Shown one piece after another: positions 38,858 through 50,875 of a DNA stretch of 64,000 nucleotides. The notes under the pieces are model-generated. The model was given only the letters and a program-made list of their open reading frames with translations. It was not told the origin of the DNA and ran no database searches. The stretch is taken from assembly GCF_002288365.1 (NCBI RefSeq), contig NZ_CP016782.1, forward strand, positions 372,001-436,000, in the 5' to 3' direction. A program made the translations under genes and the position numbers. Source of the DNA: Candidatus Planktophila limnetica (lineage in GTDB: Bacteria; Actinomycetota; Actinomycetes; Nanopelagicales; Nanopelagicaceae). Each line of letters opens with the position of its first letter. Positions within the stretch are counted from its first letter, which is position 1.

Positions 38858-40126
38858 ATGGACGCCACCGCAATAGTTACAGAGTTAGCACTGAAAGCAC
38901 GTGCTGCTTCGCGTTCGCTGTCGACTGCGACAGGTGAGCAGCGATCAAAGGCGCTCTTGGGCATTGCAGATGAAATTGATAAATCCTCAGATTTCATTCT
39001 TGCAGCTAATGCGCAAGATATGGCACGAGCCCAGTCAGAAAAGATGCATCCACAAACTCAGGATCGATTATTACTAACGGCTGAGCGCATTAAGGGAATT
39101 TCCTCTGGCGTGCGCCAAGTGGCAGAACTTGAAAATCCGTTGGGCAAAATTATTCGTGAAAAAGATCTACCAAATGGTTTACATCTCGAACAACGCACTG
39201 TTCCTTTTGGTGTTGTCGGGATGGTCTATGAAGCACGTCCCAACGTCAGTGTGGACGCTGCAGTAATTCTTCTCGCATCGGGCAATGCTGCACTCTTGCG
39301 TGGCTCATCTTCGGCAGCCGCTAGCAACGCTGCACTTTTGAAAGTAATGCGTGATGCTCTTGCCAAGACATCTATTTCCCCAGAAGTTATTCAATTAGTA
39401 CCTTCAGATGATCGGGCAACTGTGAAAGCGTTACTACATGCACGCGGTCTTGTTGATTTAGTTATTCCGCGCGGTAGTGCTTCGTTGATCAGAATGGTTG
39501 TTGATGAAGCCACAGTTCCAACGATTGAAACTGGCGCCGGCGTGTGTCATGTCTATGTTGATGAATTCGCAGATCTTTCAATCGCGCTGCCAATTCTTAT
39601 CAATTCAAAGACTCACAGACCAAGTGTGTGTAATGCCGCTGAGACTCTTTTAGTCCATAGCAAAGTCGCAGAAGAATTCATGCCTGTGGCATTGAAGGCT
39701 CTCAAAGATGCAGGCGTGATAATTCATTGTGATGAAACAACACTAGCTATCGCTAAGAAAAATAACGTAGAAGCAACTCTGGCCACTGATGAAAATTGGT
39801 GCACTGAATACGGAGTGCTCGAAATGAATGTGGGAGTTGTTGGTAGCGTTGATGAAGCAATCGATCACATCGCAAAATTTGGAACAAAACACACTGAAGC
39901 GATCGTGACGCAATCGCGTGAAGTTTCTGACAGATTTATTGCACATTCAGATTGTGCGGCTGTAATGGTAAATACATCCACGCGATTCACAGATGGTGAG
40001 CAGATGGGCTTCGGAGCAGAAATTGGTATCTCTAATCAAAAATTGCACGCCCGTGGCCCAATGGGCTTGGAAGCAATGACCACAACTACCTGGGTCGTAA
40101 CCGGCACTGGGCAAATTCGCAGTTAA
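38858..40126 (+). CDS. proA: Gamma-glutamyl phosphate reductase
   Basis: Second step of proline synthesis, NADPH-dependent. 422 residues, aldehyde-dehydrogenase fold. PFGVVGMVYEARPNVSVDAA and IETGAGVCHVYVDEFAD are family blocks; the catalytic Cys lies in RPSVCNAAETLL. Usually followed by nadD and rsfS in Actinobacteria, but here by gatC. Confidence 0.96.
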   Translation: MDATAIVTELALKARAASRSLSTATGEQRSKALLGIADEIDKSSDFILAANAQDMARAQSEKMHPQTQDRLLLTAERIKGISSGVRQVAELENPLGKIIREKDLPNGLHLEQRTVPFGVVGMVYEARPNVSVDAAVILLASGNAALLRGSSSAAASNAALLKVMRDALAKTSISPEVIQLVPSDDRATVKALLHARGLVDLVIPRGSASLIRMVVDEATVPTIETGAGVCHVYVDEFADLSIALPILINSKTHRPSVCNAAETLLVHSKVAEEFMPVALKALKDAGVIIHCDETTLAIAKKNNVEATLATDENWCTEYGVLEMNVGVVGSVDEAIDHIAKFGTKHTEAIVTQSREVSDRFIAHSDCAAVMVNTSTRFTDGEQMGFGAEIGISNQKLHARGPMGLEAMTTTTWVVTGTGQIRS

Positions 40127-44959: not shown

Positions 44960-46633
44960 ATGTCTGACATGAAGCCGCGTTCCGGAGTAGTTACCGACGG
45001 ACTTGAGCGAGCACCTGCACGTGGAATGTTACGTGCTGTTGGTATGGGAGATGAAGATTGGGTCAAACCTCAAATAGGTATTGCATCATCGTGGAATGAA
45101 ATTACTCCTTGCAATATGTCACTTGATCGTTTAGCAAAAGCTTCGAAAGAGGGAGTATTTGCAGCAGGTGGTTTTCCTATGCAGTTTGGAACTATTTCAG
45201 TTTCTGATGGAATATCAATGGGCCATGAAGGAATGCACTTCTCATTAGTATCTCGAGAAATAATTGCAGATTCCGTTGAAACGGTTATGCAAGCAGAACG
45301 ATTTGATGGAATGGTTACCTTCGCCGGTTGCGACAAATCACTGCCTGGAATGATGATGGCAGCAGCGCGTTTAGATGTTGCCAGTGTTTTTGTTTATGCA
45401 GGTTCTACATTGCCTGGTCAGGTGGATGGTCAAGATGTCACGATCATTGATGCGTTTGAAGCTGTTGGTGCATGTGCGCGAGGATTGATTACACAAGAGC
45501 GAGTAGATCAAATTGAACGTGCAATTTGTCCAGGTGAAGGTGCCTGCGGAGGCATGTACACCGCGAACACAATGGCAGCAATCGGCGAAGCGCTAGGTCT
45601 GTCATTGCCTGGCTCTGCAGCTCCTCCTGCAGTTGATCGCCGTAGAGATGCATACGCCATCAAATCAGGTGAAGCAGTTGTAAATTTAATTCGTCTAGGT
45701 ATTACTACTCGACAAATTCTGACCAAAAAAGCCTTTGAAAATGCGATCACTATTTTAATGGCACTTGGTGGATCAACTAATGCGGTACTTCATTTGTTGG
45801 CAATTGCAAACGAGGCTGAAGTCGATTTAACACTCGAAGATTTCAATCGTATTGGTGCGAAAGTTCCATTATTAGGTGACTTAAAGCCTTTTGGTAAATT
45901 TGTTATGACAGATCTTGATCGCGTAGGTGGAATTCCAGTTGTTCTAAAGATCTTGTTAGATGCCGGATATCTACATGGTGATACGTTGACGGTTACTGGA
46001 AAAACAATGGCTGAAAATCTAGCCGACATTAATCCACCATTTCCTGACGGCGTAGTTGTGCACCCTGCCAACAGCCCACTGTCTAAAGATGTTGGAATCA
46101 CAATTCTTGGTGGTTCGCTAGCGCCAGAAGGAGCGGTCTGTAAAACCGCTGGAATTGGAATTGATTCCTTTGAAGGTCCTGCACGTGTTTTTAATCGTGA
46201 GCAAGCCGCAATGGATGCAGTAGAAGATGGAACAATTAAATCTGGCGATGTCATTGTTATTCGTTACGAAGGTCCTAAAGGTGGACCTGGAATGCGCGAA
46301 ATGTTAATGGTTACTGGTGCAATAAAAGGTGCCGGTTTAGGTAAATCAGTTTTGCTATTAACTGATGGACGATTCTCTGGTGGTTCAACTGGTTTGTGTG
46401 TTGGTCACGTTGCACCAGAGGCTGTCGATGGTGGACCGATTGCATTTATCAAAGATGGCGATCGTATTAAAATTGACACGGTAAAGCGCACGTTGGATTT
46501 ATTAGTTGATGGCGCCGAACTTGAAAAACGAAAAGTTGGTTGGAAGCCATTGCCACACAAATTCACCCGTGGCGTGTTAGCTAAGTACTGCAAAGTTGTC
46601 GGATCTGCCTCAAAAGGCGCCGTCTGCGGCTAA
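44960..46633 (+). CDS. ilvD: Dihydroxy-acid dehydratase
   Basis: Third shared step of valine and isoleucine synthesis. 557 residues. Iron-sulfur cysteines C51 (ITPCNMSL), C124 ([10 protein letters not shown]) and C196 ([13 protein letters not shown]), the pattern of [2Fe-2S] actinobacterial and plant enzymes. Transcribed toward the ilvB operon but separated from it by a promoter and attenuator. Confidence 0.96.
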
Positions 46634-46667
46634 CTTCGCTCAAATTCTGAGATGTTTCAATCTGGGG

Positions 46668-46697
46668 TTGACGCTTTGAGCCTATCTATTGGACAAT
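46668..46697 (+). promoter_or_regulatory. Promoter of the ilvB operon leader
   Basis: TTGACG (46668-46673) and GACAAT (46692-46697), 18-bp spacer. Expected start of transcription is about 46703-46704, which is the ATG of the leader peptide. Confidence 0.6.
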
Positions 46698-46703
46698 AAA
46701 GCC

Positions 46704-46742
46704 ATGTCAACAAAGCCAAGCCGCCTCGTGGTGGTGATTTAA
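46704..46742 (+). CDS. ilv leader peptide MSTKPSRLVVVI
   Basis: Twelve codons ending Leu-Val-Val-Val-Ile-stop, so five consecutive branched-chain codons (CTC GTG GTG GTG ATT) stand just before the stop. This is the classical sensor of transcription attenuation, with a terminator following and acetolactate synthase next. No ribosome site precedes the ATG, and promoter spacing suggests a leaderless peptide. Leader peptides before ilvB are known in Corynebacterium and other actinobacteria. Confidence 0.8.
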   Translation: MSTKPSRLVVVI

Positions 46743-46743
46743 A

Positions 46744-46774
46744 AGCGCGTGATCTAGCAAAACGATCGCGCGCT
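46744..46774 (+). promoter_or_regulatory. Pause/protector hairpin of the ilv attenuator
   Basis: AGCGCGTGATC (46744-46754) pairs with GATCGCGCGCT (46764-46774): 11 bp with one G:U. It begins 1 nt after the leader stop, so a ribosome at the stop codon would block it while one stalled on the Val codons would leave it free. The antiterminator pairing is not resolved. Confidence 0.6.
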
Positions 46775-46775
46775 A

Positions 46776-46800
46776 CCCTCAGTTGATCTGAGGGTTTTTT
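46776..46800 (+). terminator. Attenuator terminator before ilvB
   Basis: CCCTCAG-TTGAT-CTGAGGG followed by six T. Placed between the Leu/Val/Ile leader peptide and ilvB. Confidence 0.88.
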
Positions 46801-46835
46801 ACTTTAACCAAGCATTAGAAAGGAGAAAAGCAAAA

Positions 46836-48586
46836 GTGAGTACACCTAATGGCACAGCAATGAATGGTGCAACAAGTTTGGTCAAATCACTTGAAGCCGC
46901 AGGAGTCGACGTAATGTTCGGTATTCCTGGTGGCGCGATTCTTCCTGCCTATGATCCAATTTTTGATTCAAAGATCAGACACATCCTTGTTCGCCACGAA
47001 CAAGGAGCGGGCCACGCTGCAACTGGATATGCGCAAGTATCTGGTCGCGCTGGAGTGTGTATTGCAACCTCTGGTCCAGGGGCTACAAATTTAGTTACAC
47101 CACTTGCAGATGCAGCAATGGATTCAGTTCCACTTGTTGCAATCACTGGTCAAGTTCCTAGCGCTGCAATCGGCACAGATGCATTTCAAGAAGCTGACAT
47201 CCGTGGCATCACGATGCCTTTTACAAAGCACAATTATTTAATAACTGATCCTGCCGAAATCCCACGCGCAATTGCCGAAGCTTTTCACATTGCAACAACT
47301 GGACGTCCAGGGCCTGTGTTAGTCGATATTGCTAAAGATGCCCTGCAAAAACAGACAGTCTTTAATTGGCCGGCATCTGTTTCACTTAAGGGTTATCAAC
47401 CAACCGTGCAAGCAAATGCACAATCCATATCTGATGCAGCAGCGCTGATTACGCAATCACATCGCCCAGTGTTTTACGTGGGCGGCGGAATCATGAAAGC
47501 GAACGCCTCTAAAGAATTACGCGAAATCGCAGAATTACTTGGTGCACCTGTTGTAACAACATTGATGGCACTTGGATCTTTTCCTCACAGTCATCCATTG
47601 CATATGGGTATGCCTGGAATGCATGGTTCAGTTGCCGCTGTTACGACGCTTCAAAAGTCAGATCTTCTTATTACTTTAGGTGCACGTTTCGATGATCGTG
47701 TAACCGGAAAGCTTTCTACTTTTGCAGTTAATGCAAAGGTTATTCACTGTGATATAGATCCCGCAGAAATTGGAAAGAATCGTTTTGCAGATGTTCCAGT
47801 AATCGGGGATTTAAAGCACACACTCATTGCACTTATTCCTGCTCTTAAAGCAGCGCTAGCTAAAGACCGCCCTGATTTATCTACATGGTTGCGCCAAGTA
47901 AATAACTTAAAGAGCACATACCCATTGGGTTATGACAAACCATCAGATGGTTCGGTTTCCCCTCAATACGTCATTGAACGTCTTGGAAAACTATCCGCAC
48001 CCGACAGTATTTATGTTGCAGGTGTTGGCCAACATCAAATGTGGGCTGCGCAATTTGTTCCTTACGAACTTCCACGCACGTGGTTAAATTCTGGTGGACT
48101 TGGCACGATGGGTTATTCCGTTCCCGCTGCGATGGGTGCAAAAGTTGCAGCGCCAGATACAACTGTGTGGTCAATCGACGGTGATGGTTGCTTCCAGATG
48201 ACAAACCAAGAATTAGTTACGTGCGCACTTAATAACATTCCAATCAAGGTTGCAATTATCAATAACGAAAGCCTTGGCATGGTTCGGCAGTGGCAAACCT
48301 TGTTCTATGAAGGCCGTTATTCAAATACAAACCTTGAATCAAAGCGCGTGCCAGATTTTCCTAAATTAGCCGATGCAATGGGTTGCATAGGTTTAAGTTG
48401 TGATCGCCCAGAAGATGTTGATAAGACAATTGAAAAAGCACTGTCAATTAATGATCAACCAGTAGTAGTTGATTTTAGAGTTCATCGTGATGCAATGGTG
48501 TGGCCAATGGTCGCAGCCGGAACTTCAAATGATGACATCATGATCGCGCGCGAAATGGCGCCTGACTGGGATTCACAGGAGCTCTA

Positions 48587-48587
<1 letters not shown>
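46836..48587 (+). CDS. ilvB: Acetolactate synthase, large catalytic subunit
   Basis: Condenses pyruvate with pyruvate or 2-oxobutyrate; thiamine-diphosphate enzyme. 583 residues, GTG start with AAAGGAG upstream. Catalytic Glu in [29 protein letters not shown] at the N-terminus, and the cofactor site [22 protein letters not shown]. Overlaps ilvN (TAATG). Confidence 0.97.

Positions 48588-50875
<2,288 letters not shown>

Follow-up and report, generated by a model that had tools for sequence, protein, structure and literature searches.

The ilvB operon of Candidatus Planktophila limnetica is very probably preceded by a ribosome-mediated transcription attenuator, in which two successive hairpins stand flush against each other. 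The leader lies in a window of 64,000 nucleotides (the whole stretch of DNA that was analysed, contig NZ_CP016782.1, positions 372,001 to 436,000; all coordinates below count from its first letter). It is assigned to the amino-acid operon attenuators because it combines an ORF ending in Leu-Val-Val-Val-Ile (LVVVI) codons, an intrinsic terminator (T), the genes ilvB, ilvN, and ilvC downstream, and a hairpin (H1) whose formation depends in silico on the position of the ribosome. Attenuation is usually framed as a contest for the same bases. The full explanation that we favour, namely an attenuator in which H1 antiterminates by lying next to T, has an even chance of being correct.

The features of the leader are collected in Table 1. 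Counts given below refer to three sets of ilvB upstream regions, which are mutually non-independent. The family set was drawn from 211 distinct ilvB places (137 + 86 - 12 shared genomes), of which 174 had their upstream regions read (L082-L255, including the window's own); T was found in 172 of these 174, and an ORF was parsed in 161 of the 172, in a few cases wrongly (e.g., L093, L107, L122, and L237). The named set (L002-L081) includes roughly 16 loci from Nanopelagicales and many from Streptomyces. The class set (L273-L322; 30 genomes and 20 regions) was hand-chosen for spread; L283, L297, L298, L300, L301, and L313 are without T, and some of the terminators called in this set are wrong (e.g., L292 and L299).

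Table 1. Features of the ilvB leader and its surroundings, with the evidence for each
Feature	Coordinates	Strand	Basis
Degenerate inverted repeat TGAGAT-gtttca-ATCTGG, possible operator	46648..46665	+	sequence and relatives
-35 element TTGACG	46668..46673	+	sequence, promoter scan, relatives
-10 element GACAAT, 18-nt spacer; often GAGAAT in relatives	46692..46697	+	sequence, promoter scan, relatives
Leader ORF MSTKPSRLVVVI, predicted leaderless, stop TAA 46740-46742	46704..46742	+	sequence, relatives
Regulatory codons Leu8-Val9-Val10-Val11-Ile12	46725..46739	+	folding model, conservation
H1, 11 bp with 9-nt loop, proposed antiterminator by adjacency	46744..46774	+	folding, covariation
T, intrinsic terminator stem-loop, 8 bp including outer A-U pair, 5-nt loop	46775..46795	+	folding, scan, covariation
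U-tract, six T, the first able to pair with A46775	46795..46800	+	sequence
AGGAG, likely ilvB Shine-Dalgarno	46821..46825	+	sequence
ilvB, acetolactate synthase large subunit, regulated gene, GTG start	46836..48587	+	NCBIfam NF005860, 1042 bits against a cut-off of 881

Promoter and predicted leaderless start

The promoter that an earlier note on this DNA had read from the letters, TTGACG and GACAAT separated by 18 nt, is borne out by direct reading and by a promoter scan, and it is conserved in relatives. The scan of positions 46500-46900 returned one promoter and one terminator, both belonging to the leader itself (shuffle means of 0.3 and 0.5, respectively); such single-sequence support is modest, and the call of a putative promoter is carried by its conservation. 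The gap between the -10 element and the ATG (46704-46706) measures 6 nt, and a canonical start would fall on the A of the ATG. In a blind test, TTGAC-type -35 and -10 elements were picked without regard to the ORF, and 169 of the 172 family regions with a terminator gave a promoter. The first ATG lies 6-7 nt past the blindly picked -10 element in 144 of these 169 regions (129 and 15), compared with 18 of 845 random upstream positions; among the remaining regions it follows at 0-1 nt in 19, and six have no ATG within 25 nt. The spacing expected of a transcript that starts at the ATG is seen in the window as well as in most relatives, and the start itself, at 46704, is a prediction. Judged from this spacing, a leaderless start of the window's leader peptide is highly likely.

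An earlier ORF parse had picked ORFs partly by their I/L/V content (three in five codons) and starts by a nearby -10 element, and its figures (156 of 161 starts 6-7 nt past the -10, and 155 of 156 ORFs with a run of at least three) are partly built in. A reservation about leaderlessness comes from this content-based parse: 86 of its 156 leaders have a string resembling a Shine-Dalgarno sequence (AGGA, GGAG, or GAGG) 5-14 nt before the start, mostly within a GGAGAAT that forms the -10 element. The window leader is without such a string and has GGACAAT where relatives often have GGAGAAT.

Leader peptide and regulatory codons

Direct reading confirms Leu-Val-Val-Val-Ile as the last five codons of the leader ORF (CTC at 46725; GTG at 46728, 46731, and 46734; ATT at 46737). 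These codons, for which the earlier note had proposed an alignment of related leaders, are conserved in relatives: at least three consecutive I/L/V codons are present in all 144 of the 144 family ORFs that were found blind to content, and I/L/V make up 42% of these ORFs in frame versus 13% and 14% in the other two frames. The earlier note's reading thus passes the check on codon conservation that it had set for itself. Among the 156 leaders of the content-based parse, 149 end the run with Ile; Val predominates at the two positions ahead of it, and the choice of synonymous codon varies. The distance from stop codon to T is 18-32 nt in 160 of 161 parsed leaders, the remaining one (3 nt) being a wrong parse.

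The ends of the peptides differ among relatives, with VVVI, VVVIR, or VVIEKRAI directly before the stop. In the VVIEKRAI form (e.g., L101 and L102) the ORF continues through the 5' arm of H1, which makes H1 coding too. The TAA of the window cuts off such an extension into H1, and the placement of the stop can shift with the ribosome still masking H1.

Two abutting hairpins

The window leader folds with a minimum free energy of -44.1, compared with an average of -29.2 for shuffled versions (sd 3.5; z -4.24), and none of 200 shuffles was as good. The earlier note had described an 11-bp hairpin beginning 1 nt past the stop and a separate terminator with six T; folding and covariation agree with both. 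The arms of H1 (46744-46754 and 46764-46774) and of T (46775-46782 and 46788-46795) follow each other with no linker and share 0 nt.

Covariation was assessed in 50 non-redundant family leaders, which were excised with reference to the predicted H1 and aligned by sequence only; L099 had been removed from the original 51 sequences as mis-called. For H1, 462 of 539 cells are paired and changes on both sides occur at 8 of 11 pairs, compared with 13-51% paired and 3-6 such pairs in slid controls, figures that are biased slightly towards H1 by the way in which the regions were cut. For T, the corresponding values are 343 of 392 cells and 5 of 8 pairs, against 32-66% and 0-3 pairs in slid controls. 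All 50 leaders form pairs 2-4 of H1, numbered from its T-proximal end, and the apical pairs are more variable.

Ribosome position and RNA folding

The ribosome was placed at each codon and the nascent RNA, ending before the 3' arm of T, was folded with a nearest-neighbour model that represents neither polymerase nor coaxial stacking nor kinetics. Equilibrium folding of the full leader was dropped as a score for T, as E. coli attenuators, too, reach about 0.9-1.0 at most codons. The sets used for the ribosome and coexistence tests were restricted to leaders that have a BCAA run and an H1 close to T, which left 148 of 174 family leaders, 60 of 80 named leaders plus the window's own L001 (61 in all), and 31 of 50 class leaders.

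In the window, the modelled probability of H1 is 0.99 with the ribosome stalled at Leu8, Val9, or Val10, 0.73 at Val11, 0.26 at Ile12, and 0.00 at the stop. The same dependence is predicted across the sets: a ribosome at the stop codon leaves H1 at 0.2 or lower in 148/148 family, 61/61 named, and 31/31 class leaders, and with the ribosome stalled where the run begins H1 reaches at least 0.8 in 144/148, 61/61, and 29/31, respectively. The conservation of Ile12 counts against the model, in which a stall at this codon would disturb H1. Without any ribosome H1 would still form, with a probability of 0.99 in the window and a median of 0.99, falling below 0.5 in 24 of 148 leaders; an anti-antiterminator in the window was rejected on the same ground, none being predicted.

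The 5' arm of T behaves differently from that of classical attenuators. In seven E. coli controls its modelled sequestration peaks at 0.62-0.90 on the regulatory codons and is at most 0.02 at the stop in six of the seven (hisL stays at 0.68). In the window it is 0.00 with the ribosome stalled at Leu8-Val10, and the medians for family, named, and class leaders are 0.12, 0.04, and 0.08 when stalled and 0.13, 0.27, and 0.22 with the ribosome at the stop. The arm is therefore predicted to be slightly less free at the stop than during a stall, which is the reverse of a classical switch. Somewhere between run and stop it is at least half sequestered in 35 of 148 family, 25 of 61 named, and 5 of 31 class leaders. 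In the window, leader codons pair with this arm in the model only when the ribosome stands at codons 3-6 (0.26-0.69), not on the BCAA codons. The hidden antiterminator that the earlier note had wished to look for was not found by the folding model in the form of a structure overlapping the T 5' arm in the window's stalled state, and a classical antiterminator on that arm is likely to be absent.

The energetic cost of having H1 and T coexist is -0.2 kcal/mol in the window, with medians of -0.2, -0.1, and 0.1 kcal/mol in the family, named, and class sets (90th percentiles 3.8, 0.6, and 3.0; maxima 9.1, 3.8, and 8.0). In the E. coli controls, whose stall codons were hand-picked, it amounts to 3.9-13.4 kcal/mol, and the modelled tail of the actinobacterial leaders extends into this classical range. 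Taken as a model result, the ribosome would switch H1 sharply on and off, and most leaders would show no competition between H1 and T for bases. A classical attenuator with overlapping hairpins (trp/thr type) was rejected for the window on the unsequestered T 5' arm and on this cost.

Proposed antitermination by adjacency

The proposed mechanism would begin with transcription starting at or beside the A of the ATG and with a ribosome loading on the 5' end without a Shine-Dalgarno sequence, as suggested by spacing and conservation. When charged Leu and Val tRNAs are plentiful, the ribosome would reach the stop and, in the model, cover the 5' arm of H1 and leave T uncovered; with H1 blocked, T would fold and transcription would presumably end. 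When Leu or Val tRNA is scarce, the ribosome would wait on codons 8-10 and H1 is predicted to form in full, which by analogy with C. glutamicum and M. tuberculosis would allow read-through into the operon. That the starved state, with H1 formed, should be the read-through state follows from the direction of induction in M. tuberculosis.

As H1 does not appear to displace T through pairing, it would have to block T by its position. At release, the stem of an intrinsic terminator stops about 8 nt short of the RNA 3' end; in T, the last nucleotide of the GC stem is 46794. The base of T would thus have to close at this distance, bordering on the RNA-DNA hybrid, where a flush, GC-clamped H1 helix may leave it no room: a helix beginning a single base ahead of the GC stem would be placed within the polymerase, and T would be completed only when the base of H1 melts. 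Antitermination by adjacency, taken alone, is given even or slightly less than even chances, its steric step being a matter of reasoning. The model further predicts read-through of an untranslated window leader, in which H1 would form without a ribosome. This prediction opposes a simple transfer from C. glutamicum, where loss of the leader start codon lowered expression by 80% according to the available part of the report (PMC11857589).

If an abutting helix alone can block a terminator, leaders deemed to be without antiterminator would become candidate switches, and the rule (a helix flush with the terminator base) would be easy to search for and to engineer. A description of a non-overlapping flush antiterminator was not found in the partial sample taken of the open-licence PMC literature. 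Adjacency, if true, could also help to explain results with the S. coelicolor ilvB leader that appear paradoxical under the classical model in the excerpted account (PMC1262725).

H1 could instead serve for pausing or synchronisation, or it could insulate T and so keep it well folded; read-through of T would then be constant, and any regulation would arise from ribosome-RNAP timing or from the promoter. The ability of H1 and T to coexist and the possible operator upstream of the promoter would fit this explanation, as would two published observations, each taken from part of its source: in E. coli, the ribosome mediates repression of a terminator located shortly after a gene (PMC4824070), and changes to the regulatory codons before ilvB were without effect in S. 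coelicolor (PMC1262725). However, H1 is masked at the stop and free at the stall in the model across several stop placements, and a pure pause hairpin needs neither this nor a flush junction. An insulating H1 would moreover favour termination during starvation, opposite to the direction reported in the accessible part of the M. tuberculosis study (PMC13236596). We consider this explanation unlikely.

The H1/T junction across actinobacteria

The junction between the two stems was measured by a count of shared nucleotides that lets both stems take their largest extent. In each set the most frequent value is 0 (78 of 173 family, 47 of 76 named, and 18 of 44 class leaders), and the stems abut to within 1 nt in 122, 64, and 34 of the same totals, including 52 of the 60 named leaders outside Nanopelagicales. 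Overlaps of at least 3 nt occur in 13/173, 4/76, and 5/44. The earlier suggestion of a non-classical switch, for example with stacked helices, fits a flush junction that is found across the class.

A high-scoring helix abutting T is present in 131 of 181 family, 66 of 75 named, and 34 of 44 class leaders, a count that took ten places twice (L263-L272); by the same loose score such a helix is not rare by chance, with 425/3620, 255/1500, and 178/880 (12-20%) in dinucleotide shuffles. Judged by folding, a strong structure stands flush before the ilvB terminator in 151 of 172, 41 of 75, and 31 of 44 leaders and before other terminators in 5 of 45 (2/28, 1/9, and 2/8), the latter being a small background taken from the window and the flanks of relatives, in which one of the window's two flush cases is the ilvB structure itself on the minus strand. 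Linkers of 11-19 nt, returned by an H1/T finder with a 75-nt window, were rejected as an artefact of long Streptomyces H1 stems being cut. Elsewhere in the window, a terminator-like stem with a strong flush upstream structure lies at 40042-40077 on the minus strand; it is the only other flush pair besides the mirror image of the ilvB pair.

A further explanation is a boundary-overlap or 'fast' attenuator, in which antiterminator and terminator exchange a few common base nucleotides by branch migration and of which the window would be a reduced version. C. glutamicum ilvBNC has been modelled in this way, with a boundary trinucleotide (GCC) common to both hairpins, and mutations there in the terminator stem raise expression 7-8 fold, as stated in the part of the report at hand (PMC11857589). 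The overlaps of 3 nt or more counted above agree with it; the lack of any shared nucleotide in the window, the negligible coexistence cost, and the mode of 0 in every set speak against it, and we regard it as quite improbable. Membership of the window in the C. glutamicum 'fast attenuator' type was rejected on the same observation of 0 common boundary nucleotides. A tertiary contact, pseudoknot, or long-range pairing invisible to a nearest-neighbour model, as might be suspected by eye from the CCC(C)TC-like sequence kept in the T 5' arm of many class leaders and from leader codons that often resemble this arm and so could pair with the T 3' arm, is very improbable as the real antiterminator, given that a stalled ribosome covers those codons and that the T 5' arm is then little sequestered.

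Whether antitermination by adjacency extends to a class-wide actinobacterial switch that replaces base-pair exchange, with the zero-nucleotide linker as a selected feature, is a more tentative proposition, which we hold to be somewhat less than evenly probable.

Comparison with known attenuators

Leaderlessness and the BCAA sensor are not new, and the window's leader is best grouped with the leaderless ilvB attenuators already described in actinobacteria, its unusual aspect being the switch; like actinobacterial ilvL-type leaders, it has an LVV-type run just before a hairpin and a terminator at ilvB. With the E. coli thr, leu, trp, his, ilv, ivb, and phe attenuators it shares the principle that the ribosome's position on regulatory codons sets the downstream RNA structure. 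In E. coli, however, the antiterminator takes the T 5' arm, at the coexistence cost given above, and the leader ORFs are led by a Shine-Dalgarno sequence.

The C. glutamicum ilvBNC attenuator (IlvL, 'ilvB-II motif') is a near relative of the window design, in which, as in most measured leaders, H1 and T have at most one base in common. As described in the available parts of two reports, it has a leaderless LVVV peptide and a hairpin adjoining the terminator in front of the same gene, with a transcript start within 1 nt of the ATG, as predicted for the window (PMC11857589, PMC10272879). There, the 3-nt GCC boundary is common to the hairpins and an extra anti-antiterminator hairpin covers the start (PMC11857589, in part), whereas in the window no base is common, the model yields no anti-antiterminator, and the stop follows directly after Ile, before H1.

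For M. tuberculosis ilvB1NC, which like the window has a BCAA uORF and a terminator, codon-dependent induction is experimental: in the portion of the study available, an inhibitor of BCAA synthesis induces via LVVI codons, an LVVI-to-AAAA change abolishes induction, and disruption of T mitigates the phenotype (PMC13236596). The same source presents terminator and antiterminator as mutually exclusive, whereas five mycobacteria-like leaders analysed here (species inferred from the peptide) overlap by at most 1 nt, with 0 shared nt in L287, L293, and L295 and a 1-nt overlap in L289 and L290; a sixth, L292, was mis-called.

The ilvL of Streptomyces ilvBHC (MRTRILVLGKRVG) likewise has BCAA codons, hairpins, and a U-tract, and it was found to be leaderless by RNA-seq in S. 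lividans, according to the excerpted report (PMC8079986); its peptide extends into H1, unlike that of the window. The reported lack of effect of codon mutations in S. coelicolor, mentioned above, is a further difference, and the older comparative work in which it appears had found ilvB peptides and terminators and, in its available part, left their mode of action unclear (PMC1262725).

A possible operator and the neighbouring genes

A scan of the whole window with Rfam returned five tRNAs and no other match at gathering score, and at 46600-46900, with E values up to 10 allowed, a single match was obtained (E 9.6), far under its gathering score; a known RNA family was therefore rejected for the ilvB leader.

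The -35 element of the ilvB promoter begins 34 nt past the end of ilvD (44960-46633), and the intervening DNA carries the degenerate inverted repeat of Table 1. An intact TGAGAY-N0-8-RTCTCA is present in 134 of 172 family upstream regions holding TTGAC, and the spacing from repeat to TTGAC is exactly 4 nt in 123 of the 172, as opposed to none of 174 mononucleotide-shuffled regions. The repeat is a candidate operator and hence possibly a second layer of control.

The promoter is followed by ilvB, ilvN, and ilvC and then by serA-like and leuB-like genes. IlvN (48587-48874) has just 95 amino acids; its match to the small-subunit model TIGR00119 spans positions 2-78 of 158, and the C-terminal half is absent. 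The SerA-like protein (49901-50875; 324 amino acids) matches positions 2-312 of a 525-position phosphoglycerate dehydrogenase model with 437 bits, below the cut-off of 454, and its C-terminal region is absent as well.
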